A stretch of 42,444 nt of DNA from a virus: positions 1 through 42,444 of IMG/VR virus record IMGVR_UViG_3300042691_017706; one strand, 5' to 3'. The translations under genes and the position numbers were made by a program. Shown one piece after another: positions 573-25,569 of the stretch. Under the pieces are notes generated by a model that did not search any database, was not told the DNA's origin, and was given only the letters and a program-made list of their open reading frames with translations. Each line of letters opens with the position of its first letter. Position 1 is the stretch's first letter.

Positions 573-1151
573 ATGGACCACCACGTCATGCTTATCAAGA
601 AAACGTTCAAATTTTATGCGTCTCACCGTAATCGAAATATGGAGGACAAATGCTTCTCCATTCATGGTCATCGATACGGCATTACGCTATACTTCCAGGC
701 CGTTCGTGATTCTGGGAACCCGGACATATCGATTCCCTTTTCAGATTTCGAACGGGTCGGACGGTACTTCAATGAGAAGTGGGATCATGCCCACATCATC
801 GACAAGGATGATCCGTTGCTTCCACTGTTCCAACAGGTAGAAGAAACGAACTTCCCGATTCCAATGAAACGAGTAGTTCTTGACGAAATCCCCAGCGTCG
901 AGAACATCTGCTTCACTATCTTTGATGATCTCGCGGCAGACTGGCCACTCATCACACTGGAGATACAGGAGACGGACAGTTCGACTGTCTGTTACAGTGC
1001 CCACGACTACGAAGAAGACCTCGTGCGTATCAACCGCGTCCCCCACGAATGTGATTTCTCTGACCCTTTAAAGGTGAAATGCGATGAATGTGGAAAAACC
1101 CGATTCCTCTACCGATCCGAACTTCGTAAACGCACAACCCCCGGAACGTGA
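573..1151 (+). CDS. queD: 6-carboxy-tetrahydropterin synthase (QueD-like, PTPS family)
   Basis: QueD converts 7,8-dihydroneopterin triphosphate to 6-carboxytetrahydropterin, the second step of 7-deazaguanine synthesis. The protein has the family hallmarks: His18 in ASHRN, catalytic Cys27 in KCFSIHGH, zinc ligands His31 and His33, the PSVENI segment and a C-terminal IQETDSS. At 192 residues it is longer than a typical 120-150-residue QueD because of a C-terminal tail containing a CDEC pair, possibly a small metal site. A start at ATG 588 is equally possible and would give a more usual N-terminus; neither start has a clear ribosome binding site because a terminator hairpin lies immediately upstream. 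The last 68 nt overlap queE in another frame, so the two are probably translated together. Confidence 0.93.
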   Translation: MDHHVMLIKKTFKFYASHRNRNMEDKCFSIHGHRYGITLYFQAVRDSGNPDISIPFSDFERVGRYFNEKWDHAHIIDKDDPLLPLFQQVEETNFPIPMKRVVLDEIPSVENICFTIFDDLAADWPLITLEIQETDSSTVCYSAHDYEEDLVRINRVPHECDFSDPLKVKCDECGKTRFLYRSELRKRTTPGT

Positions 1152-1848
1152 ATCGACAACCCCGTATGAACTGGGTGTACATTCGACCTTCGTAACTATT
1201 CAGGGAGAGGGTCCGTGTACCGGACAAAAAGCCCTGTTTATTCGACTGGCTGGGTGTAACCTGCAGTGCCCGAAGTGTGACACGGATTACACCAGCCACC
1301 GGGAGTTCTGGACAGACGAAGCATTCGTACATAACACCATCGTGAAGCATCCAGATGTTGATTTGTACGTCATTACTGGTGGAGAACCACTTCGTCAAAC
1401 GGCAGCGTTGATCAATTGTATCGAACGTCTGGACTCGTATTTGATCAAAGAGCGTCGTGCCATTCGTATACAGATAGAAACGAATGGAGTCTACTCCCCC
1501 TTTCTTGACAATTTTTGTAACGTTGACGTCATTTACGTTGTTTCCCCCAAAACAAGTCATATCACGCATGACGATACAGAACTGTTTGACTTCTGGAAAT
1601 ACGTGATGTCTGCTGATGGTGTTTGTGGGATCGATGGACTTCCCACTCGCGTACTGGGGCAGTGCATACGACCGCATCGCCCAACAGAATGGATCATGGA
1701 ATCCAATCGTCGTCGTGTGTTCCTGCAACCGGAAGATTCCAAAGATCCGGAAACCAATCGCCGAAACATGGAAGCCTGCGTCCAGTCGTGCATGAAGTAC
1801 GGGTATACCCTTTGTCTGCAAATCCAGAAAATTGTGGGCTTGCCATAG
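1084..1848 (+). CDS. queE: 7-carboxy-7-deazaguanine synthase (QueE-like, radical SAM)
   Basis: QueE is a radical SAM enzyme that contracts the pterin ring to give 7-carboxy-7-deazaguanine (CDG). The N-terminal TIQGEG segment is at residues 38-43, the cluster-binding cysteines are C58-x3-C62-x2-C65, and the SAM-binding TGGEP motif is at residues 98-102. Length (254 aa) is normal for the family. The N-terminus runs about 30 residues before the usual VHSTFVTIQGEG core; no later in-frame ATG restores a shorter start, so ATG 1084 is kept. It overlaps queD by 68 nt. A motif that looks like a promoter begins at its stop codon. Confidence 0.95.
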   Translation: MNVEKPDSSTDPNFVNAQPPERESTTPYELGVHSTFVTIQGEGPCTGQKALFIRLAGCNLQCPKCDTDYTSHREFWTDEAFVHNTIVKHPDVDLYVITGGEPLRQTAALINCIERLDSYLIKERRAIRIQIETNGVYSPFLDNFCNVDVIYVVSPKTSHITHDDTELFDFWKYVMSADGVCGIDGLPTRVLGQCIRPHRPTEWIMESNRRRVFLQPEDSKDPETNRRNMEACVQSCMKYGYTLCLQIQKIVGLP

Positions 1849-1868
1849 TTAGCATCACTACGACTATA
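1848..1868 (+). promoter_or_regulatory. Candidate phage promoter motif, copy 1 (upstream of folE)
   Basis: The sequence is GTTAGCATCACT, then A, then CGACTATA. It matches copies at 11656 and 16386 at 19 or more of 21 positions. TATATT at the end resembles a -10 box, but no conserved -35 lies 17 nt upstream. It ends 60 nt before the folE ATG at 1929. The promoter role is inferred from repetition and position. Confidence 0.6.
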
Positions 1869-1928
1869 TTGGTTGGTTCAAGTTTTACCCACTTTTACCC
1901 GGCATGGAATGTGCCTTGAAACAGAACA

Positions 1929-2705
1929 ATGAATTCGCCATTTGAGGAACCCGATGACGAGCGTGAATTTTCAGAACCGTTTATCCCTGAATCTGATGAC
2001 TCTGAATCAGCAGAGTCAGACCTGCCACAGTTCGACGATGACGGCAATATGCCGGTAATGCCCACAGAAGCAAACGTTCACAGTGATCCTCTGATCCTGA
2101 CGGATGAAGAGTTTCGTGAGTTTGTTGATCTGCGGCATACTATCGCAGAGCGAGCAGACTTCAATGGATCAGCACAGGGCATACGCGACTTCCTCGATGC
2201 TATCGGGGAAGATACTACCCGTGAGGGTTTGAAAGATACCACACGTCGTGTCATTGAATCGTGGGAGGAGTTGTACTGCGGCTATGCCGTTGACATTCCG
2301 TCATTGTTCACTACATTCGATGCAGAACAGTACGACGAAATGGTTTTGTTGCGTGGCATTCACTTCTACAGTATGTGTGAACATCACATACTTCCGTTCT
2401 ACGGGGTAGCTCATGTTGCATACATCCCCGGAACGAAGATCGTCGGACTCAGCAAACTGGCTCGTCTTGTGGAAGCCTTTTCCCGCAGACTGCAGAATCA
2501 GGAACGCCTCACTAAGCAGATTGTCGATACCCTGAATGAGCACCTGTCTCCCCGTGGGGCGGCATGTATCATCGAGGGGCAGCATATGTGCATGGCATGT
2601 CGTGGTGTGCAGAAACCCAACAGCGTTATGGTCACTTCCTGTATCACTGGTGCGTTCAATACACCAGCAACCCGTGCCGAATTGTTTTCTCTTATCAAAG
2701 GTTAA
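1929..2705 (+). CDS. folE: GTP cyclohydrolase I
   Basis: FolE converts GTP to dihydroneopterin triphosphate, the entry step of 7-deazaguanine synthesis. The enzyme core is clear: MCEHH (Cys150, His152, His153), the PFYG loop, the substrate segment VGLSKLARLVEAFSRRLQ, and the second zinc cysteine Cys224 in MACRG. The first 60 or so residues are an unusual acidic, probably disordered extension rich in Asp, Glu and Ser, beyond the typical bacterial enzyme. With queD and queE it supplies the pathway to CDG. It lies 60 nt downstream of the 21-bp promoter-like motif and 6 nt before the next gene. Confidence 0.97.
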   Translation: MNSPFEEPDDEREFSEPFIPESDDSESAESDLPQFDDDGNMPVMPTEANVHSDPLILTDEEFREFVDLRHTIAERADFNGSAQGIRDFLDAIGEDTTREGLKDTTRRVIESWEELYCGYAVDIPSLFTTFDAEQYDEMVLLRGIHFYSMCEHHILPFYGVAHVAYIPGTKIVGLSKLARLVEAFSRRLQNQERLTKQIVDTLNEHLSPRGAACIIEGQHMCMACRGVQKPNSVMVTSCITGAFNTPATRAELFSLIKG

Positions 2706-2711
2706 GTAATC

Positions 2712-3665
2712 ATGACCACCAGATCCCATATTGTTTGTCGTTTCCAGTTCGAAGCATTTCACAATTGGCCGGATGCTCCGGAACAACACGCATATCTGAA
2801 AACTGTGCATCGCCATATGTTCCATGTATCAGCATGGAAGCGAGTAACCCACGACAACCGTGATATTGAGTTTATCCAACTCAAACGCGATATGGCTTCG
2901 TATTGCCATTTTACATATGGGGCCGAACCAACGACGTTGTCGTGCGAAATGATGGCCAAAGAACTGCTGGAACAGTTCGATCTTGATTCTTGTGAAGTTT
3001 CTGAGGATGGGGAAAACGGCGGTCGCGTTACGATAATGGAGCATTTCCCCTTACTAGCGAAACCAATCGAGCAGAGCGATCCATTCGAGGAAGAGGAAGA
3101 AATAAAAGTCTCCAACCCAAACGGAAACCGTTTCAAGGGTTCCTGCTTCATGGGCAAGGAGTGCGAAGGACCATACGACTGGAGAGAACAGGTAACACTG
3201 TTCATTCCCGGATCGTATCTTACAGGGATTTCATTGAAGACTAGCTTTGATCGTTTCATCGGAAGATTGCATCAAATCAGAAAACAACAGTTCGTTATTC
3301 CGGTCTATCTGGGTGCCGATAACGATCTGAACCACAGAGAGGCGACAATCGAGTATGTACTGGACAAACTTGCGAGTTTTAGCCGGTCAGGAAAAGATAC
3401 GCGATTGTTTGTTGAAGTGGAGTCAGTAAACGAGTTTCTCAACAACTTCGGAAATTTGTGGAATCGTGAGCAGTACTCCGATCTGGATAAATACCTCGTA
3501 TCGAGGAATCCAGATGACATCATAATATCTGATTGCTTCGCAATTAAGTTGTTCGGAAAGGAACGCATCACTTGGATTACTGCTCATCCCGAAGGAGGTG
3601 ATGACGACTACATATTTTCAACACCCTACAATGACGAGCGGTTTACTGAAGACTTCGCTATCTGA
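2712..3665 (+). CDS. Divergent QueD-like (T-fold) protein with uncharacterised C-terminal domain
   Basis: No characterised family is recognised with certainty. Residues 1-106 resemble a degenerate PTPS/QueD fold: FEAFH (cf. F-x-A-x-H), HRHMFHV at 33-39 (cf. HGHxY), LSCEMMAKELL (cf. PTxENIA) and CEVSEDGENGG at the end (cf. VxVxET). This N-terminal pattern recalls a short uncharacterised protein common in phages, a recollection not checked here. Residues 107-317 form a separate region with CFMGKECEG and VYLGADN segments that I cannot assign. Its place directly after folE, inside the queD-queE-folE-dpdA run, suggests a step in base synthesis or modification; that is inference. Start ATG 2712 is 6 nt after the folE stop. 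Confidence 0.75.
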   Translation: MTTRSHIVCRFQFEAFHNWPDAPEQHAYLKTVHRHMFHVSAWKRVTHDNRDIEFIQLKRDMASYCHFTYGAEPTTLSCEMMAKELLEQFDLDSCEVSEDGENGGRVTIMEHFPLLAKPIEQSDPFEEEEEIKVSNPNGNRFKGSCFMGKECEGPYDWREQVTLFIPGSYLTGISLKTSFDRFIGRLHQIRKQQFVIPVYLGADNDLNHREATIEYVLDKLASFSRSGKDTRLFVEVESVNEFLNNFGNLWNREQYSDLDKYLVSRNPDDIIISDCFAIKLFGKERITWITAHPEGGDDDYIFSTPYNDERFTEDFAI

Positions 3666-3702
3666 TCCGGTTCTGTTTCCATTCATTTCAGGAGTTTGAT
3701 CT

Positions 3703-4917
3703 ATGTTGTACTACGTCCCATTGGAGTCTTACAAAACCCGGTACACTTCACAATGGTCTGCCCCGCGTGTGGGGTGGCTTGAAAGGAAGTGGATCGAGAA
3801 CAAGGTTGAATACGAGCGTATCGAAGGTAGTATCGGACACGAAACCGCATTCGCCCCCCATTCTCAGGAAATGGGGAAAGGAAAAGTTCTGAATCTGAAA
3901 CGTCGTCTTGGGTGGGCATTTAAGCAGACCGAAACGCTCGTAACTATGATACTCGATGGAAAGATCACAAACAACGACCGTATCCTGTTCGATGACTTCT
4001 GGCACCCCGGAATCGAACAGATCGCTATGGCAATGGAGCAGGTCAGAGACTGGATACGAATGGGGGCGTTCTGTCATGCTCAGTCGGTTGACCAGTACGA
4101 CTTCACGACAAGAATGCAACCGTGGATACGACATGCGGAAGCGGCAGCAATGGATATCTATTCGCATGTATTCGTGAATAGTCCAATACTGGCGGAACTA
4201 CTGGATGTCGCGTTTCCCCAGTCGCACGCCGAGAAGCATTGTGTGGGGCATGTGTTCGACAGCGAAAGTGTTATCAGCAGTATCCCCCATCGCGACAACA
4301 AGAAAAAGAATCAGGTTGTGTTCAGTTCGCGATTCGATTCTGAGAAGCAACCTCATCTGTTTCTGGACGTGGTTGAGTGGTACATCAACAACCGACACGG
4401 TTGTCGGTATGATGACGTCAACTTCATCATATGCTCCGGAACAGAGTTCAGAAGCGACGATCAGACCGCAATTGATCGGGCAAAGGATCTTGAACAGCGA
4501 TTTCCGGAGTTTCTGGAAATCCGGGACGAACTGGATAAGAGTCAGTACTACACCATCCTGCAGGAGTCTGCGGTACAACTCTCAACCAGCTTACAAGACT
4601 GGATCAGTTTCTGTCTGCTGGAGTCCGTCTCGTTCGGTTGCGTCCCGGTGTATCCAAACTATCGGAGTTTCCCGGACGCATTCGGAGAATTCAATACGCT
4701 GCTCTACCCAGCGGGTCTGCAGGTTAACCCGAAACGCCAGATTGAGATAATCAACGAGTACATTCAGGACGCTTTGCAAATCGCCGACAGCAATGATATG
4801 ATTTTCAAAGCCAAACTGTTCAATACGATTGTGGAGCGTCACGATTCCACATGGCACCGCATGATGAACTGTCTGGGTGTCAATGTTCCCGGACCATCGG
4901 AAGGAAAGCAGGAGTAA
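3703..4917 (+). CDS. GT-B-like glycosyltransferase
   Basis: A 404-residue protein with the organisation of GT4-type glycosyltransferases. The N-terminal half contains a DDFWHPG segment and a C-terminal Rossmann half begins around VVFSSRFDSEKQPHLF. It then has the YYTILQESAVQLSTSLQDWISFCLLESVSFG region, where LLES/E corresponds to the nucleotide-sugar binding stretch, followed by PVYPNYRSFPD. Donor and acceptor cannot be read from the sequence. It sits between deazaguanine synthesis genes and the dpdA-like gene, with its stop overlapping the next start (TAATG), so sugar addition to a modified base is possible, though it might act on another target. The upstream AGGAG is well placed for ATG 3703. 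Confidence 0.75.
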   Translation: MLYYVPLESYKTRYTSQWSAPRVGWLERKWIENKVEYERIEGSIGHETAFAPHSQEMGKGKVLNLKRRLGWAFKQTETLVTMILDGKITNNDRILFDDFWHPGIEQIAMAMEQVRDWIRMGAFCHAQSVDQYDFTTRMQPWIRHAEAAAMDIYSHVFVNSPILAELLDVAFPQSHAEKHCVGHVFDSESVISSIPHRDNKKKNQVVFSSRFDSEKQPHLFLDVVEWYINNRHGCRYDDVNFIICSGTEFRSDDQTAIDRAKDLEQRFPEFLEIRDELDKSQYYTILQESAVQLSTSLQDWISFCLLESVSFGCVPVYPNYRSFPDAFGEFNTLLYPAGLQVNPKRQIEIINEYIQDALQIADSNDMIFKAKLFNTIVERHDSTWHRMMNCLGVNVPGPSEGKQE

Positions 4918-5960
4918 TGACTCGATTAGGGGAATCCCGACACATTCCCCCATGCAGGACAAGGAAGACCAAAGGCGAACGTGCTGAAGAACGCGTTCGC
5001 TTTTTCTTTTTGGACTCTGGGGCACACTCGCTGTACAACAAACATATCGGTCACCACGGCAGCATCACCGAGGACATGAAGGATCGAATGTCCAAGATGA
5101 CTCCGATGGAAAGGTTTGCAGCACGCAGACGCTCTCCCAGCCTGTTTCGAAGTAAGCGTAAGACTTCGTATGATTATTACAAGTCCAAAGAGTTCTACGA
5201 CTACTTAGCGACATACTGTCAGTTTGTGATCGATTACAAAGATTCAATTGACGCATTCGCAACACTTGATGTTTTGTTCAATCCAGAGATGTCTTACAAC
5301 ATTCTCAAACACATAGAAAACGAATGGGGCTTATTCCCAGTTCCAGTCATCCACTACAACACAGACATCGGATGGGTTCATCGCTACTTAGACGAAGGTT
5401 ACAACTACATCGGAATCGGTGGACTCGGACAGGAGATCACCAAAGCCAACTACTATGAGTGGGCAGACAAAGTATTCACAGTTCTGTGTGATAAAGAAAC
5501 TCACTTACCACTGGTCAAGACTCACGGGTTTGCGATGACGGCCCACCAGCTTCTTATTCGCTATCCGTGGTACAGTGTTGACTCGGCAAGCTGGGCGAAG
5601 GCTGGTGGCTTCGGTCGTTTGTATGTTCCAAGGATGACCGGCGGGAAGTTTGATTTCCTGAGTCCACCCTACACACTGAACTGCTCTGTGTTGTCTCCCA
5701 CGAAACACCGTGCCGGACGGAATCTGAGTACTCTGAAGAAAGCAGAACAGGCAGTCGTAAAAAAATGGGTAGAAAGTTGCGGCCAAACTTTAGGTCGTTG
5801 CGACAGTAATGGGTCCACGATTGAGCAAGGCGTCATCAATTATCACGGGGCACGAAAAATCTGCAATCTTCGCTTTTATGAAATGATGGTTGAATCCCTG
5901 CCAGATTGGCCTTGGCCGTTCGTTGCCAAGAAAGAACGGAAAGTAGGGTTATACTTGTGA
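4917..5960 (+). CDS. dpdA: DpdA-like 7-deazaguanine DNA transglycosylase (TGT fold), N-terminus atypical
   Basis: Related to phage DpdA and tRNA-guanine transglycosylases, which exchange guanine for a 7-deazaguanine base. Visible motifs are FFFLDSGAHS (Asp33), VDSASW (Asp222) and barrel strands such as FATLDVLFNPE, PVIHYNTDIGWVHRYLDEGYNYIGIGGLG and LPLVKTHGFAMT. Start ATG 4917 is in a TAATG overlap with the previous gene and follows GGAGT. The first 28 residues (basic, Pro/Cys-containing) do not look like the usual first strand, and a terminator-like hairpin lies in that coding stretch. The normal N-terminal strands appear to be encoded downstream at 6458-6667. Its place after queD, queE and folE supports a DNA rather than tRNA role. 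Confidence 0.85.
   Translation: MTRLGESRHIPPCRTRKTKGERAEERVRFFFLDSGAHSLYNKHIGHHGSITEDMKDRMSKMTPMERFAARRRSPSLFRSKRKTSYDYYKSKEFYDYLATYCQFVIDYKDSIDAFATLDVLFNPEMSYNILKHIENEWGLFPVPVIHYNTDIGWVHRYLDEGYNYIGIGGLGQEITKANYYEWADKVFTVLCDKETHLPLVKTHGFAMTAHQLLIRYPWYSVDSASWAKAGGFGRLYVPRMTGGKFDFLSPPYTLNCSVLSPTKHRAGRNLSTLKKAEQAVVKKWVESCGQTLGRCDSNGSTIEQGVINYHGARKICNLRFYEMMVESLPDWPWPFVAKKERKVGLYL
4971..5011 (+). terminator. Terminator-like hairpin inside the 5' end of the dpdA-like gene
   Basis: Stem GCGAACG (4975-4981) pairs with CGTTCGC (4994-5000), followed by TTTTTCTTTTT. By shape it is a good intrinsic terminator, yet it falls within codons 19-32 of the dpdA-like frame. It may be the old terminator of the glycosyltransferase gene, an attenuator, or chance. 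Confidence 0.6.
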
Positions 5961-8071: not shown

Positions 8072-9286
8072 ATGAAGGGTTTGTTTCAGGCCGCGACTTT
8101 AATGCGGACAAAGGTTTATTCAGCATCTGCTCGCTGTGGGGCGTGCGGTCTGTACAAACACTGTAAGTCACCCAAGCTGGAACCGCAGGGAAGTGGTTCC
8201 ACTGGTGTGATGATTGTACTGCCGCCGATCAGTAAACCTGCGGATGACAGCGGTGTTTTTATGATGTCTTCTGTCGGTACTAAAGTACGCGACGTACTTC
8301 TGGATATGAACATCAGTCCGAAGAACTGCTACGTCACTGCTGCCACAATCTGCCATACCAATAAACCCACAAGCGAACAGATTGATGCCTGCAGTTTCAA
8401 ACTACGCGAATCGATCAAGGAACTGAAACCCCATACAGTGATTGCTATCGGGGATGCCGCAGTCAGGAACGTTATCCAGTTCACATGGAATAAACCAGCA
8501 GGCGATCCACATCGCTGGTATGGTTATCAGATTCCAGCACAGTTAACGAACTGCTGGGTCTGTCCCGTGATTGAACCCACGAATGAGGAACGGCAGTGTT
8601 CCGGCGTACTGTTCGAACAGCAGATCGCTTCTGCACTGAAACGCAGGAAGCACCCCTACAAAGAGAACAAGATCCCAGACTTCCATTCTCAGGTTAATAT
8701 CCTCGATGAAAAGGAAGCAATCAGATGTATCAACCATCTGGCTGAGAATGGTGGTACGGTTGCGTGGGACTACGAAACCAACAGCCTGAAACCGGAGCAC
8801 AGCAAAGCCCGGATTCTGGCCGTTAGCTTCTGCGTAGGCGGAAAGTATACTTTTGCCGTTGCGTGGTCGGAACGGGTTGCAGAAGCCGTTAGAGCGTTCT
8901 GCAGAAGCCCCCGTGTAAAGAAAATTGCCAGTAACCTGCAGTTTGAACATCGGTGGACTCAAGCGATCTTGAAAACCCGTGTTCGTGGCTGGTTGTGGGA
9001 TACCATGCAGGCAGCTCACAGTCTGGACAATCGGCAGGGAGTCACCAGTATCAAGTTCCAGTCGTTTGTTCAGTTGGGTCAACCCAGCTACAACGACAAG
9101 ATCCATGACTTCATGACAAGCGACGATAAGAAAGAAGATGACAGTCATGCTGTCAACAGGATCGTACAGGATATCCCAATGCACGAACTGTTAGTCTACT
9201 GCGGACTTGACTCACTTCTGGAATACAAGGTAGCGGTCAAACAAGCTCGCCTGATGGAACACCCAGCGTATGAGGAGATGATATGA
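8072..9286 (+). CDS. UDG-like domain fused to DnaQ-type 3'-5' exonuclease
   Basis: Residues 15-200 follow the family 4 uracil-DNA glycosylase layout: Cys22, Cys25 and Cys31 near the N-terminus, then CYVTAATICHTNKPTSEQIDAC and LKPHTVIAIGDAA. The usual catalytic GExPG segment is replaced by LPPISKPADDSG, so glycosylase activity is doubtful. Residues 205-404 are a DEDD exonuclease: D233-Y-E235 (motif I), SNLQFEHRW (motif II) and Y376-CGL-D380 (motif III). This would be the proofreading part of the family A polymerase, which is encoded separately next door with a 4-nt ATGA overlap. In most phages exonuclease and polymerase are one chain. Confidence 0.9.
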   Translation: MKGLFQAATLMRTKVYSASARCGACGLYKHCKSPKLEPQGSGSTGVMIVLPPISKPADDSGVFMMSSVGTKVRDVLLDMNISPKNCYVTAATICHTNKPTSEQIDACSFKLRESIKELKPHTVIAIGDAAVRNVIQFTWNKPAGDPHRWYGYQIPAQLTNCWVCPVIEPTNEERQCSGVLFEQQIASALKRRKHPYKENKIPDFHSQVNILDEKEAIRCINHLAENGGTVAWDYETNSLKPEHSKARILAVSFCVGGKYTFAVAWSERVAEAVRAFCRSPRVKKIASNLQFEHRWTQAILKTRVRGWLWDTMQAAHSLDNRQGVTSIKFQSFVQLGQPSYNDKIHDFMTSDDKKEDDSHAVNRIVQDIPMHELLVYCGLDSLLEYKVAVKQARLMEHPAYEEMI

Positions 9287-10701
9287 TACCGTGCGAACCG
9301 GAAGCGTATAACCTGATGCACGAAGGTGCAATAGTGATGAGCGAAATCTCTTCCAATGGATTTCGCATTGATACCGAGTTCCTTTCTAACTCGCGTCTCA
9401 AGATGCAGGAAGAAATCAAGAACGTCACCAAAGAACTCAAGGAACACGATTACTGGCGACTCTGGAAAAAGAGATACGGCGAGAAAGCCAAACTGACGTC
9501 GCCCGATCAGTTGGGCAAGTTACTGTTCAAGGAACTCAAATATCAGCCTACCGCGTACACCGACAAAGGGAAACCATCTACAGATGCACTCGCACTTGAA
9601 AAGATCGATGATCCTTTCGTGCGGGATTACAGTCGTATGTGTAAGCTGATCAAGAGCGACCGCACATTCCTTGCCGGGATCGAGCGGGAGACACGTGGTG
9701 GGTTTCTCCGAGTGTTCTTTAACCTTCACACAACAAAAACATGGCGATCAAGTTCAGAAGCAGTCAACTTCCAGAATCTGCCAATCCGGGAAGGCGAGAT
9801 GGCACGTCTGATCCGGAGTTGCTTCATCCCACGGAAAGGTCGTTGTATTGCGGAAATCGACTGTAGCGGTGTGGAAGTTCGTATCAGTGCGTGCTATCAC
9901 AAAGACCCGGCGATGATTCGCTATATCGAAGATCCATCTACGGATATGCACCGAGATACAGCATGTGACATATTTCTGTGTAAACCAGAGCAGGTGACGA
10001 AAGCTGCCAGAACTGCCAGCAAGAACAGCTTCGTGTTTCCAGAGTTTTACGGTTCGTACTACAAGACTGTAGGCAGCGATCTGTGGGACGTAATGGAAAT
10101 GCGGAACATCACCCTGAACATCAACGGCAAAGAGCGATCTATCCGGAAGCATCTGGCCAAAAAGGGAATCACAGAACGCGGAACCAGTACCGAACCAGAA
10201 CCCGGCACGTTCATGGATCACATCCGGACGGTAGAAAAGATATTCTGGAAAGAGCGGTTCCGGGGATACGACAAGTGGAAGTTCGATACGTTCGCCCAGT
10301 ATCTGAAAACTGGTGGCTGGAAAACCAAAACAGGATTTCAGGTCACTGGGATCTACTCCAAGAACGACGTAACAAACCATCCGATTCAGGGGAGTGCTTT
10401 CCACTGTCTGCTGTGGGGTCTGATTCGCCTGCAGAAGTGGCTGAGAAAGCACAAGATGAAAACACTCATTATCGGACAGATCCACGACTCCGTCGTGTTA
10501 GATGCTGTCCCTAGCGAACTCCAGGATGTGCTTCACAAATGGAAGTATATCATGGAAGTAGAACTACCACGTCACTGGAAATGGATTATTGTTCCGATGG
10601 TGGTAGAAGCCGACGTCGCCCCGATTGATGCCTCATGGTTCGCGAAAGAACCATACGACATTAACTCCAAGGGGATCTGGGTTCCAAAAACAGCACTGTG
10701 A
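9283..10701 (+). CDS. Family A DNA polymerase, polymerase domain only
   Basis: A 472-residue palm/fingers/thumb protein without an exonuclease domain. Motifs are WRSSSEAVNFQNLP (RTSSSxPNLQN region), motif A AEIDCSGVEVRISA with Asp193, motif B RTASKNSFVFPEFYG, and motif C IGQIHDSVVLDA with His401 and Asp402. Motif C has Ser403 where most family A polymerases have Glu, a variant that should still coordinate metal through the aspartates. An insertion of about 100 residues separates motifs B and C. The start overlaps the exonuclease gene (ATGATACC), so both chains are probably made together and may assemble into one proofreading polymerase with the clamp. Confidence 0.95.
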   Translation: MIPCEPEAYNLMHEGAIVMSEISSNGFRIDTEFLSNSRLKMQEEIKNVTKELKEHDYWRLWKKRYGEKAKLTSPDQLGKLLFKELKYQPTAYTDKGKPSTDALALEKIDDPFVRDYSRMCKLIKSDRTFLAGIERETRGGFLRVFFNLHTTKTWRSSSEAVNFQNLPIREGEMARLIRSCFIPRKGRCIAEIDCSGVEVRISACYHKDPAMIRYIEDPSTDMHRDTACDIFLCKPEQVTKAARTASKNSFVFPEFYGSYYKTVGSDLWDVMEMRNITLNINGKERSIRKHLAKKGITERGTSTEPEPGTFMDHIRTVEKIFWKERFRGYDKWKFDTFAQYLKTGGWKTKTGFQVTGIYSKNDVTNHPIQGSAFHCLLWGLIRLQKWLRKHKMKTLIIGQIHDSVVLDAVPSELQDVLHKWKYIMEVELPRHWKWIIVPMVVEADVAPIDASWFAKEPYDINSKGIWVPKTAL

Positions 10702-21269: not shown

Positions 21270-21837
21270 GGCACTGGAGAACGTCGCTAAGATCATTGAC
21301 AGATCGAAAGAGCGTTACTCCACACTGAAGTCGCACTACACCGAATCGAAGTACCGTCTCAAGGAACTCTACAGTAAATATGAAACAGTCGTAGAGGCGA
21401 GAGGGATTGCACAATCGGTTGCGTCGAGTATTCAGTCATCTTGCTTTGATCAGTTTGCTGCAGTCGTTTCGAAATGTCTTTCGACGGCACTGGGTTCCCG
21501 GTATCAACTCAAATTGAACTACACCCAGAAAGCCGGAAAGACTCAAGTCGAATTACTGTTGATGGACGGCGAAGAAGAATACGATCCAATGAGCGACACG
21601 GGTGGGGGAGTCGTGGACATTGTAAGCTTCGCTCTGCGGATTGCCGCTATGGTAATGAAAAGACCGGAAAGTCGCAGTCTGTTTATTCTGGACGAACCTT
21701 TCCGGTTTCTCAGTCAGGAGTACCGCGAGTCAGCAGAACAGCTCGTTCAGGAACTGGCGACAGAACTTAATTGTCAGTTCGTCATCGTTACACATATCAA
21801 CGAGCTGATATCTGGAACAGTCATTAACATTGACTAA
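21262..21837 (+). CDS. SbcC/Rad50-like ATPase, C-terminal half
   Basis: A 191-residue protein containing what the N-terminal half lacks: a short coil (about 1-60), strands around LGSRYQLKLNYTQKAGKTQVELLL, the ABC-type signature region DTGGGVVDIVSFALRIA starting at Asp112, Walker B LFILDEPFRFL with D144-E145, and the switch histidine in FVIVTHI. Alone it cannot bind ATP because it has no Walker A; it must pair with the chain encoded at 19122-20138. ATG 21262 overlaps the previous stop (ATGACTGA). It is the last plus-strand gene. Confidence 0.9.
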   Translation: MTEALENVAKIIDRSKERYSTLKSHYTESKYRLKELYSKYETVVEARGIAQSVASSIQSSCFDQFAAVVSKCLSTALGSRYQLKLNYTQKAGKTQVELLLMDGEEEYDPMSDTGGGVVDIVSFALRIAAMVMKRPESRSLFILDEPFRFLSQEYRESAEQLVQELATELNCQFVIVTHINELISGTVINID

Positions 21838-22475
21838 CGTCGCAGGAACTTTGCACGATAAAGGATTTGATTCATCATCGGGCGTATCGGATTCGACTTG
21901 TGGAACATGTGGTATAGATAACCACCGAACCGCACTTCGTGTCCGAACGCCTTTCTGCATGAGTCCCGAAAGTGATTGTCCTCACAGCCCCACTCTACGA
22001 ACTCTTCGCACATCCCACCAACCTGAGTATACAGGTCGCGATGGATAAGAATAAACCCACCCGGAGTGACCGGAAGTCTGCGGTTCTTTGTTCGCCATAC
22101 ATAGTTGCTGCATTCGAACGTGGGCGATGTTGGGTTCTGCTTCAGAAGCAATTGCGTCTGCTCATTATCAAGTCGCAGACAATGCTGGTACGGATAGACC
22201 AGTTTCCCGGACTTCTCCGCGTAGGATACGGAGTCTGATAACTGGTTTCCGGATACCATGCTGTCAGCGTCCAGCACGCCTACCACAGCGTTCCGCGCGT
22301 CCGATACGGCAAGGTTTACCAGTTTGGATTTGCAGAACGGAGCCGGGCTTGTATCAGCCGCAACAATAACCTGATCGAAACGGCACCGTGCCCAGTTCAG
22401 AACGAATTCAAACAGGGGTTTCCGATCGTCCCTGTCCTTCCATGGGATTATGATCGTCGCCGGTAGTACTTGCAT
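21834..22475 (-). CDS. GT-A-like glycosyltransferase (family 2 type)
   Basis: A 213-residue nucleotide-sugar transferase. It opens with the beta strand ATIIIPWKDRDD, has the metal-binding D69-A-D71 in VGVLDADS, and a later segment GGFILIHRDLYTQVGGMCEEFVEWGCEDNHF resembling the catalytic ED region of GT2 enzymes. The upstream frame extends to 22526, but GGAG 9 nt before the ATG at 22475 and the domain edge favour this start. It overlaps the preceding transferase gene by 68 nt. The stop overlaps the convergent ATPase stop by 2 nt. Target unknown; it may act on virion or host surface glycan. Confidence 0.8.
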   Translation of the reverse strand: MQVLPATIIIPWKDRDDRKPLFEFVLNWARCRFDQVIVAADTSPAPFCKSKLVNLAVSDARNAVVGVLDADSMVSGNQLSDSVSYAEKSGKLVYPYQHCLRLDNEQTQLLLKQNPTSPTFECSNYVWRTKNRRLPVTPGGFILIHRDLYTQVGGMCEEFVEWGCEDNHFRDSCRKAFGHEVRFGGYLYHMFHKSNPIRPMMNQILYRAKFLRR

Positions 22476-23265
22476 CGGTAAGGTCTCCATGCCAGTCATA
22501 GTTGCTTTCATCAAACCCCGGAACATTGATACGATCAGTATTCGGGATTGATCGGTCTCGTTTATGACCGCACCAACCCTTTCGTTTGTGAAGTAGTTCG
22601 AGTTTCTTTTTTCGCTCGTTTACTTCCTGTAACTGGATTCCGTCCGTCCGCTCAGTAGTTCGTCCATACCAGTTTGAATCTCTGGGGCCAAGATGAAGTA
22701 CATCGAACGGTAGTTTAATACGATTCTGTTTATTCCACTTTGACTGGAAAAAAGAGTCGCCACCACCAGCATGACCAAACGAGATATCATACCACGGACG
22801 TGACTGGAGTACAGCATCATCTGCGTGGAATAACTGGAAGTAGCCGGGGATCTCCAAGTCGCGTGCGCGTACACATTTTGACCACTGCAATGCTGGAGAC
22901 CATTGCCTTGGATCATTAAGGATACGACGGTGGGGTCCGTACAGATTTCCGATCATCATTCCGTTCAGTGGCATCACTTCTGGAAAGATAATATCAGCAT
23001 CCCATACCACTATCCACCCTTCACGACCGAGGGCATTGAACCCGAGTTCAATCGCGAGACCTTTGTTAAACGATGCTCCATACTCATAAAACGAATCAGT
23101 AACAAACAACTTTGCTTTGGGGTGTTTCTTAACCAGTTCCTGTGTACGAGTGTCAGCACTGGAAGTAATAACCAGACACTCATCAAAGTGCTGCAGGTTC
23201 TGCGGCAATGTAATCTTGAGTAGATCGTCGTACTCAACGCAGACAGTCAATCCACGAAGTTTCAT
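22408..23265 (-). CDS. GT-A-like glycosyltransferase
   Basis: A 285-residue protein with a nucleotide-diphospho-sugar transferase fold. The N-terminal segment LTVCVEYDDLLKITLPQNLQHFDECLVITSSAD is a typical first half, and the metal site is WDADI at D89-A-D91. Later features include GYFQLFHADD and FGHAGGGDSFFQSKW, the likely acceptor/catalytic region. The C-terminal 45 residues (RINVPGFDESNYDWHGD...) look unstructured and overlap the next gene. ATG 23265 follows GAGGTCAAT. Encoded between a methyltransferase and a second transferase, it looks part of a glycan assembly cassette. Confidence 0.78.
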   Translation of the reverse strand: MKLRGLTVCVEYDDLLKITLPQNLQHFDECLVITSSADTRTQELVKKHPKAKLFVTDSFYEYGASFNKGLAIELGFNALGREGWIVVWDADIIFPEVMPLNGMMIGNLYGPHRRILNDPRQWSPALQWSKCVRARDLEIPGYFQLFHADDAVLQSRPWYDISFGHAGGGDSFFQSKWNKQNRIKLPFDVLHLGPRDSNWYGRTTERTDGIQLQEVNERKKKLELLHKRKGWCGHKRDRSIPNTDRINVPGFDESNYDWHGDLTDASTTGDDHNPMEGQGRSETPV

Positions 23266-23867
23266 ATTGACCTCGCTTTCATTATCGCGAGACTCCCGAC
23301 CGTTGATACGAGATCAAACGGCTGTTCCTGTACGAACTGATTCACAGCATCAGTGACTTGGAACCATGTGGGGTCGTTGTAGTCGTGGCAGATGATCGTT
23401 CCACCTTCCTTCAATAACGATGGAGCCAGCAAAAGATCGTTGTATACCGATTCAAAGTTGTGACCACCGTCAATGAAGATCAAATCAAATCGAACCGCTG
23501 GTTGTAGTCGTCGAAACTGCATAAGAGTTCCAACAAACAACGATTGATTCTTGCGTGCATTAGACCCCCAGTTTCCGAATCGTTTCAGTGGATCTGCATC
23601 ATCATGACTTACGCGATCTTCGTCAGCGTGTGCTGCTGGTTCAAAGATATCAAGTGAAACGATTCGAGCATCTGGACGGTAAGTAGCGACAATCGCAGCA
23701 GTCACTCCTGATGCCGTCCCTACTTCCAGCATCATCCCTTGTTTGGGTAGAAAGTTTGCCAGAGCGTATTGCTCGCGTACCGTAGTCCAGGCAAGTCCTT
23801 TCAGATGCGAATAAGTTACTGGAAGTTTGTCGTAGGCATCGTCCCATGAATCTGGTGGGGTCTGCAT
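23262..23867 (-). CDS. Class I SAM-dependent methyltransferase
   Basis: A 201-residue methyltransferase of the Methyltransf_24/cephalosporin hydroxylase-like type. Motif I is MLEVGTASGVTAAIVATY, followed by the acidic strand IVSLDIFEP, FDLIFIDGGHNFESVYNDL and the C-terminal GGTIICHDYNDP. The substrate is unknown; small-molecule or sugar O-methylation is common in this group. ATG 23867 overlaps the radical SAM stop (TGATG); the adjacent GTG 23870 is less likely. It belongs to the same cassette as the glycosyltransferases. Confidence 0.88.
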   Translation of the reverse strand: MQTPPDSWDDAYDKLPVTYSHLKGLAWTTVREQYALANFLPKQGMMLEVGTASGVTAAIVATYRPDARIVSLDIFEPAAHADEDRVSHDDADPLKRFGNWGSNARKNQSLFVGTLMQFRRLQPAVRFDLIFIDGGHNFESVYNDLLLAPSLLKEGGTIICHDYNDPTWFQVTDAVNQFVQEQPFDLVSTVGSLAIMKARSI

Positions 23868-24838
23868 CACAGTGTTCCGTTCTCAAGGTAATCGGTTGCT
23901 TTGGGAAGTGTTTGATCTCCTAACTGAATCAGGTTCTCAACCACACGCACTTCGCGTTTCGCAGAAGTCTTCATTGCGACTACATCTTTGTGGAAAGCAG
24001 TCACTTGCTCCATTGTACCAGAATTGGCCAATTGCCCGTATCCCTTTAGCGGGATTCCGCAATGGTGGCAGTGCGTCCGGACTTGCTCCGCGAAATCCAC
24101 CATTGAGCGTTTCCACCAGCCCGGCTCCACTTTCAGACCAGTATCGGGCATAGGTTTTCCCGTTCCTGCCCAATTCTGATTGTATTGATGGAGCATTGCT
24201 TGCGCTCCGGCGATCTCACAAAAGTAAGCACGCAGCTCACCACGGACCACACAGATGATGGACGACCAGTATCGATTGATGTCGCAATTCGATATCAACT
24301 TCCAGCGTTCGTTATCATCCGGGATCAGATCAGACATCGCTGTCAGTGGTGGGCTATGTCGTGAATCGTTTTCCAGTCCTTTGAGATACGGAATAGATTC
24401 TGGCCATTCGCGTGCGAACTCTTTATGAGCTTCTTCACTTTGATGTACATTCAGATTCGACACTGCCGGATTAAACACCCCTCGCATGATTGAACCTTTG
24501 CCGAGTGGATGATTGCACCAGATGCCTCGCTGTTCGAACGGAACATACTGTTCCATCAACTTGCAGAGATTGTAGAACTCCGGATGTATGGCAGGATTCC
24601 CGCCGAACATTCCGACGACGCCGAAGTACCCTTCAATTGATTGTAACGCCTGCTCGAAATGTTGCACAGAGATGCGTTCGGCTTTACCACTAAACTGCGA
24701 GTTCTGCGTACAGTGGGAGCACGCACGATCACACGCTCGCGTTACCCAGATTTGAAGAACACCCTCTCTCCAGATTCCTTTTCGCTTAGATGAAGGGGCG
24801 TACATTTTCAACAGGGCTAGCTGTTCGTTACGATTCAT
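23867..24838 (-). CDS. Radical SAM protein with C-terminal cysteine motif
   Basis: A 323-residue radical SAM enzyme. The cluster motif is C36-x3-C40-x2-C43 (TRACDRACSHC), followed by MFGGNPAIHPEF, which occupies the place of the GGEP motif, and a C-terminal pair of cysteine clusters (FCEIAGAQ and HCHHCGIPLKGYGQ) resembling a reduced SPASM/twitch auxiliary site. The reaction is unknown. ATG 24838 is in an ATGA overlap with the upstream gene. Placed among glycosyltransferases and a methyltransferase, it may modify a sugar or a virion peptide. Confidence 0.87.
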   Translation of the reverse strand: MNRNEQLALLKMYAPSSKRKGIWREGVLQIWVTRACDRACSHCTQNSQFSGKAERISVQHFEQALQSIEGYFGVVGMFGGNPAIHPEFYNLCKLMEQYVPFEQRGIWCNHPLGKGSIMRGVFNPAVSNLNVHQSEEAHKEFAREWPESIPYLKGLENDSRHSPPLTAMSDLIPDDNERWKLISNCDINRYWSSIICVVRGELRAYFCEIAGAQAMLHQYNQNWAGTGKPMPDTGLKVEPGWWKRSMVDFAEQVRTHCHHCGIPLKGYGQLANSGTMEQVTAFHKDVVAMKTSAKREVRVVENLIQLGDQTLPKATDYLENGTL

Positions 24839-25569
24839 TGGTCGTTTTCCACATAAGATGGTGCTGGTAAAAGATCGTTCAAATACGCACGAAGAGATGC
24901 CCCCCATCCGGGAACATTGTTATTCGTTACAACTGCATCCTTCAGATGTTCTCGCAACTCGTCAGGAGTTAGTTTACGAAGTACCCGTCTGAAATAAGGG
25001 AAGTACGGTTGTGAGTTTTCATAGAACAACGATCCGTAAAGGATCTCCCACAAATACAAATCCATAGGAGTCGTCATCGGGTAGATCGAAAAAAGATGAC
25101 GTAGATTTGTTTTGTTAACGAAGTGCGGCAGATGTGTTGCATAATCCAGACAAGGAACCCCGGCGGATCTTAAATGTTCCTGAGTCTTCTTTTTTATCGC
25201 TCGCCATTCTGTATTGACTTCGTATTCATTTGGATCGTGTCGCGGGATCTGCAATTCTTCCACGGTTGTCGGTTTGATAAGATATACATCATCCATCATC
25301 CAAAAGAAGTTTTCCGGAACGTAGGGATCAGCAACTAATCGTTTCAATTTCTTCAAAGTGTCAAAGTAACGAAGTGGGTTGTGTCCCGTATATCTCTCAA
25401 TCGGAATGTGATGTCCTGCATACCAGTCTGGTCTTGATCCAATCAAAGTGAATGAGACCTCAGTGTCTTTCAGAAAAGTCTCAATGGACCTCATTGAGTA
25501 GCGAAGTTCTTCAGTTCCTTTGCTACTTAGATTCTCTGAATGGTAAATCCAACAAAAGTGAGTTTTCAT
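24835..25569 (-). CDS. Stealth-like sugar-phosphate/glycosyl transferase
   Basis: A 244-residue protein with features of the Stealth family of hexose-phosphate transferases: EELRYSMRSIETFL near the N-terminus, a PDWYAGHHIPIERY segment, and FFWMMDDVYLIKP carrying the acidic pair. The middle section THLPHFVNKTNLRHLF matches the conserved HxP/N..xL block of that family. It starts within the 755-residue gene's stop (ATGA) and likewise overlaps the radical SAM gene, so the cassette is continuous with the tail region. Donor and acceptor are not deducible. Confidence 0.75.
   Translation of the reverse strand: MKTHFCWIYHSENLSSKGTEELRYSMRSIETFLKDTEVSFTLIGSRPDWYAGHHIPIERYTGHNPLRYFDTLKKLKRLVADPYVPENFFWMMDDVYLIKPTTVEELQIPRHDPNEYEVNTEWRAIKKKTQEHLRSAGVPCLDYATHLPHFVNKTNLRHLFSIYPMTTPMDLYLWEILYGSLFYENSQPYFPYFRRVLRKLTPDELREHLKDAVVTNNNVPGWGASLRAYLNDLLPAPSYVENDQ

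Follow-up and report, generated by a model that had tools for sequence, protein, structure and literature searches.

The FolE, QueD and QueE enzymes form the established route to 7-carboxy-7-deazaguanine (CDG). In the phage DNA derivatives described in 2019 and 2023 (dG+, dADG, dPreQ0 and dPreQ1), a 7-deazaguanine made through these three enzymes is inserted into DNA by the transglycosylase DpdA. Further phage derivatives, dCDG, dDG and methyl- and formyl-preQ1, are also said to occur, and to our knowledge no glycosylated one has been reported. The 2019 survey sorted phages by QueC, Gat-QueC and QueF, and a search of its text found no mention of glycosylation; it describes Bipper as a phage lacking QueC alone, in which the QueC substrate itself may be the modification (PMC6884629). 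The closest described systems are the dPreQ0 clusters of Seuratvirus and Queuovirinae phages such as CAjan and SeppeHuegi. Here we analyze the 42,444 nt of IMG/VR record IMGVR_UViG_3300042691_017706 (the window, a linear virus record that is possibly a fragment). Its cluster at positions 573-5960 resembles these systems in encoding FolE, QueD, QueE and a related DpdA, and in its position ahead of the sliding clamp and DNA polymerase genes. In SeppeHuegi, the clamp and the polymerase follow a run of QueE, QueC, QueD, FolE and DpdA. The described clusters differ from the window in that they possess QueC and have no T-fold paralogue, glycosyltransferase or the domain that we call X.

Our analysis suggests that the window carries a QueC-independent branch of this pathway, in which, quite probably, a glycosyltransferase (GT) drawing on a UDP-sugar glycosylates the CDG-derived base that DpdA puts into DNA. 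Sugars on modified bases have two precedents. In T4, a phage GT-B glycosyltransferase likewise puts a sugar on a non-canonical DNA base, 5-hydroxymethylcytosine; the base and the GT family are different, and the window base would enter DNA by transglycosylation, whereas that of T4 enters by the polymerase. In mannosyl- and galactosyl-queuosine, a 7-deazaguanine nucleoside does bear a sugar, but in tRNA, on the cyclopentene ring of queuosine and by the action of animal enzymes (PMC12518689). Glycosylated 7-deazaguanine in DNA was not reported in the literature that we searched, which did not cover the 2023 paper on four derivatives or a 2024 review.

Results

Gene content of the cluster

A preliminary description of the window had drawn six reading frames across 573-5960. 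All six are confirmed at these coordinates, and the two that it listed as extra genes (2712-3665 and 3703-4917) are real, being conserved in distant phages. The features are as follows.

573-1151, + strand: QueD (6-carboxytetrahydropterin synthase) with a Cys-rich C-terminal extension (Pfam PTPS, 4.6e-17; phrog_2389; catalytic residues intact)
1084-1848, + strand: QueE (phrog_2076, 2.8e-45; CxxxCxxC invariant)
1929-2705, + strand: FolE, GTP cyclohydrolase I (Pfam, 1e-68; NCBIfam folE, above the cut-off)
2712-3062, + strand: T-fold (TF) domain of open reading frame 4 (ORF4; whole frame 2712-3665), from AlphaFold2, Foldseek, hhalign and residue comparison
3117-3662, + strand: X domain of ORF4, from family search, alignment and hhalign
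3703-4917, + strand: GT4-type retaining glycosyltransferase of the GT-B fold, from Pfam, AlphaFold2, Foldseek and conserved residues
4917-5960, + strand: DpdA, DNA guanine transglycosylase of the Seuratvirus-like type (phrog_887, 7.9e-33; BLASTP, 1e-25; Asp triad)

By residue comparison, the window QueD keeps the catalytic C27, H31, H33, D71-H72 and E133, and the [4Fe-4S] motif of QueE is invariant across its relatives. FolE, QueD and QueE with intact catalytic residues are what a phage 7-deazaguanine cluster of the DpdA type calls for; together with the profile matches, the intact residues of QueD and QueE support the pathway to CDG that had been proposed from queD, queE and folE. The C-terminal extension of QueD contains cysteines (HECDF...KCDEC in the window) and is conserved in the closest relative, L181.

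DpdA shares 30% identity over 208 amino acids with the annotated DpdA of Seuratvirus SeppeHuegi, and its Asp55, Asp140 and Asp244 are invariant among 29 relatives, as in a transglycosylase with catalytic aspartates. The profile match, the SeppeHuegi match and the Asp triad bear out the earlier call of a dpdA-like gene. Its start is probably at 4917 and not at 4851, because the ATG at 4917 overlaps the stop codon of the GT gene and is preceded by AGGAG. Pfam gives no match for DpdA at E<=0.1, the tRNA-type guanine transglycosylase (TGT) included, the protein shows no visible CxCxxC zinc site, and a search of PDB sequences with its profile found no TGT. The lack of a tRNA-type match and of a visible zinc site makes it unlikely that the cluster serves only to supply host queuosine, an outcome that the preliminary description had considered.

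Absence of QueC

QueC was not found in the window, which confirms its earlier reported absence from these 42 kb. It is likewise missing from a contig that overlaps the window with 99.95% identity over 14.9 kb and continues ~7 kb beyond its upstream end. Among phages with relatives of the window GT, four with complete genomes (BUCT-ZZ01, Phosso, PA5oct and ACP17) gave no QueC match, and phage X1 gave a single weak one, below the cut-off. QueC or Gat-QueC, which would mark the preQ0/ADG/archaeosine branch, is thus absent from the window, the overlapping contig and the relatives. The contig and the complete relatives lead us to reject a QueC hidden in unseen sequence. The absence of QueC is a trait of the lineage.

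A census with profiles built for this analysis, in which contigs were ranked by similarity to the queries, gave the same picture; the contigs are related to varying degrees, and the Fisher p-values below are a guide only. The 80 phage contigs fetched with DpdA alone fall into 38 with TF and GT but without QueC, 26 with QueC but without TF, and 16 with neither QueC nor TF. TF and GT are both missing in 80/80 contigs fetched with QueC, so that QueC and TF occur together in 0/160 loci. When DpdA is collapsed at 50% identity, the counts for both, QueC only, TF only and neither are 0/12/20/8 (Fisher p=4.5e-5), and at 90% identity they are 0/25/31/12 (p=7e-10). On whole contigs, a curated QueC model detects QueC in 0/18 of the TF and GT class, 0/6 of the class with neither and 18/18 of the QueC class. 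In addition, none of 49 viral contigs anchored on GT has QueC above the cut-off, whereas QueE was found in 46 of them.

The class with neither gene bears on the identity of the base. The preliminary description had offered two readings, dCDG and a new derivative for which the two extra genes would be responsible, and considered the final base unpredictable. The derivative is favored over bare dCDG, because bare FolE-QueD-QueE-DpdA clusters form a separate class (16/80) and the window, with its TF, X and GT, falls in the TF and GT class. The base is also less unpredictable than stated, since the second extra gene encodes a glycosyltransferase that is linked to DpdA.

Several other loci deserve separate mention. 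L193, L213, L214, L215, L223, L227 and L229 encode QueD, QueE, FolE and DpdA without QueC, TF or GT, and are candidates for bare dCDG. L242 (4407-10813) has FolE, QueC, a distant GT and DpdA without TF, and is the only locus of the DpdA scan that breaks the rule of QueC versus GT. In Xanthomonas phage PhiXhv-12 (L008, 6846-10080), a QueC domain is part of an annotated aminotransferase that adjoins a PIG-L deacetylase and a distant GT relative, possibly a separate amino-sugar branch that retains QueC.

The T-fold and X domains of ORF4

ORF4 relatives are found in the same isolated phages as the GT relatives, in clusters with QueE plus FolE, QueD or DpdA, annotated or detected. The TF domain (ORF4 residues 1-110) is modeled by AlphaFold2 with a predicted local distance difference test score (pLDDT) of ~97, and its Foldseek match to E. 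coli QueD is at 3.4e-5. The TF profile against the single window QueD sequence was uninformative; alignment-against-alignment comparison by hhalign, used instead, gave 94.7% for TF and QueD and at most 3.9% in 67 control families. Like QueD, TF has the zinc His residues and the substrate-binding (anchor) Glu of the T-fold family. Its catalytic machinery is different: the position of QueD Cys27 is an invariant Leu29, the Asp-His pair is lost, and a new invariant set, H47, R50, E53, S77-C78 and D99, is present. Since the catalytic Cys, Asp and His are lost and a new set is present, TF is, by its residues, a QueD paralogue with a different task, and a second QueD is ruled out.

The X domain, which elsewhere is a free gene of ~165 amino acids, is confined to the GT loci. 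All 70 matches to the X family (70/70) lie in loci that also have GT and TF, and none lies in 43 TF-only, 108 QueC or 16 'neither' loci. X has no match in Pfam or among solved structures, one marginal match in PHROG, and no BLAST link to the phage X1 gene at L004:8513-8941 was obtained. In hhalign, X gave a weak signal to QueE, 58.7% against a maximum of 3.0% in 67 controls; the signal is 71% in window-type members versus 20.5% in the free-standing ones of the PA5oct type. The X family alignment lacks the CxxxCxxC [4Fe-4S] motif of QueE. X may tentatively be regarded as related to QueE.

The glycosyltransferase

The AlphaFold2 model of GT (pLDDT 91.8) matches the retaining GT4 enzymes GtfA/BshA in Foldseek at 1e-11. 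R210, E214, K215 and E307 are kept in 66-69 of 69 relatives; by analogy with GT4 enzymes in general, we take R210, E214-K215 and E307 to be donor-binding residues. With its GT-B fold and these Arg, Lys and Glu residues, the protein fits the retaining GT4 family.

GT relatives are encoded on 407 IMG/VR contigs and, by tblastn, in the isolated phages BUCT-ZZ01, X1, Phosso, PA5oct and its relatives, and ACP17. Where a GT locus has at least 5 kb on each side, DpdA is present in 50/50 cases and TF in 49/50. In GTDB contigs, 4/4 GT relatives adjoin TF, and DpdA was detected with 3/4. GT is found with three different DpdA types. The link to DpdA in the well-flanked loci disfavors GT as a surface-glycan gene.

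An NAD-dependent epimerase of the GalE type lies near GT in 29/88 non-redundant cases, mostly adjacent and in two lineages, and both epimerases tested (n=2) score above the curated galE (UDP-glucose 4-epimerase) cut-off. Its place beside GT indicates a UDP-hexose donor in those two lineages. The window-type GT may use host UDP-sugars.

Other genes recur in related clusters. L034, L041, L060 and other loci with the X1/ACP17-type DpdA have, in the interval from FolE to DpdA, a further glycosyltransferase-like gene (GT2), seen only with that DpdA type, which possibly adds a second sugar. In clusters of the PA5oct type (e.g. L091 12115-13167), two neighbors recur, a GMP reductase in 11 loci and a phosphoribosyltransferase in 31, which suggests control of purine pools.

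Other features of the window

Just downstream of the cluster lie an HNH gene, genes for the sliding clamp and MazG, and polymerase genes. The DNA polymerase is split (8072-10701): one reading frame fuses a uracil-DNA-glycosylase-like domain with a 3'-5' exonuclease, and the next is the polymerase part. Between the replication and tail genes, 21834-25569 on the - strand encodes a methyltransferase, a radical SAM protein, a Stealth-like protein and two proteins that resemble glycosyltransferases. This block may be a second glycan or modification locus, unrelated to the cluster.

Discussion

The cluster suggests the following mechanism. FolE, QueD and QueE would produce CDG. TF, with the X domain, would then alter or deliver the CDG-derived base, in place of the conversion of CDG to ADG and preQ0 by QueC. 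Decarboxylation of CDG by TF is our leading guess, because TF without GT accompanies the short phiST-type DpdA and because phages of that type reportedly carry dDG or dCDG and a CDG decarboxylase, DpdL. DpdL, which Cui et al. 2023 are reported to describe, may be the T-fold protein; no DpdL sequence was identified. DpdA would exchange the CDG-derived base for guanine in DNA, and GT would glycosylate it before or after the insertion, the sugar probably being a hexose donated by a UDP-sugar. The product would be a glycosylated 7-deazaguanine, which should block restriction. Removal of the carboxyl by TF would leave no evident oxygen to accept the sugar, which might then be linked through carbon at C7; were the carboxyl retained, the sugar might instead be joined as an ester. 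The sequences show which enzymes are encoded and with which residues, that QueC is excluded, and that TF, X and GT go together with DpdA. The action of GT on a deazaguanine, the sugar, its point of attachment and the chemistry of TF are what we infer from them, and the roles of the window genes are assigned by way of their relatives.

Several observations weigh against glycosylation of the base. The Pfam match of GT to Glycos_transf_1 (1.1e-5) is slightly under the curated cut-off, window-type clusters have no epimerase gene nearby, and we recognised no gene whose product would obviously place an acceptor hydroxyl at C7. Of 79 TF-anchored loci, 36 lack GT, mostly those with the short phiST-type DpdA; hence TF works without glycosylation in phiST-type clusters. 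The phages phiST and MA9V-3 have TF without GT. L242 and PhiXhv-12 are QueC-bearing phages with a distant GT relative.

In the alternative to which we give most weight, TF makes or delivers the base, which stays free of sugar as dDG or dCDG, and GT acts on a different target, such as another base, a protein of the virion or a molecule on the host surface. The TF loci without GT and the many acceptors of GT4 enzymes speak for it. However, a GT for virion or surface targets is not expected to track DpdA, and DpdA accompanies GT in every well-flanked locus, and TF in all but one, although three DpdA types are involved and the phages differ greatly. We consider this alternative unlikely. A more distant one is that QueC is provided by the host or by an unseen part of the phage genome, dPreQ0 or dADG being made as in Seuratvirus, while TF and GT would have accessory roles. 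In its favor, the window is possibly a fragment, many bacteria encode QueC, and the DpdA of phage 9g alone inserted some host-supplied preQ0 in E. coli (PMC6884629). The failure of QueC and TF to co-occur in any of the 160 loci, and the four complete genomes of GT phages without a QueC match (with X1 reaching only its weak match below the cut-off), make this improbable. Finally, modification of host tRNA and not phage DNA, with a queuosine-like base possibly glycosylated as in animal tRNAs, is suggested by the glycosylated queuosines of animals (PMC12518689) and the relation of DpdA to TGT but is hardly tenable, as DpdA has a relative in the DNA enzyme of Seuratvirus and no Pfam TGT match, the cluster adjoins the sliding clamp and polymerase genes, and QueC, which queuosine requires, is excluded.

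Glycosylation of the CDG-derived base after or before its insertion by DpdA is the reading that we prefer for the window. More tentatively, and with less confidence than in that reading, we propose that it belongs to a widespread, unrecorded branch that makes glycosylated 7-deazaguanine, in which a QueD-derived enzyme, possibly with a QueE-derived domain, would divert CDG off the QueC route, and in which the sugar may be C-linked at C7.

The QueC-less deazaguanine cluster with a glycosyltransferase is common to hundreds of phage contigs, from mid-sized ones such as the window to jumbo phages, and its carriers include jumbo phages of Pseudomonas, Acidovorax, Xanthomonas, Sinorhizobium and Synechococcus. 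Several phage isolates carry the module, which makes the proposal directly testable. If 7-deazaguanine is indeed glycosylated in their DNA, the base could be predicted by a simple gene rule, QueC, or TF with GT, or neither, and the modification would be a chemically new class of protection for phage DNA.

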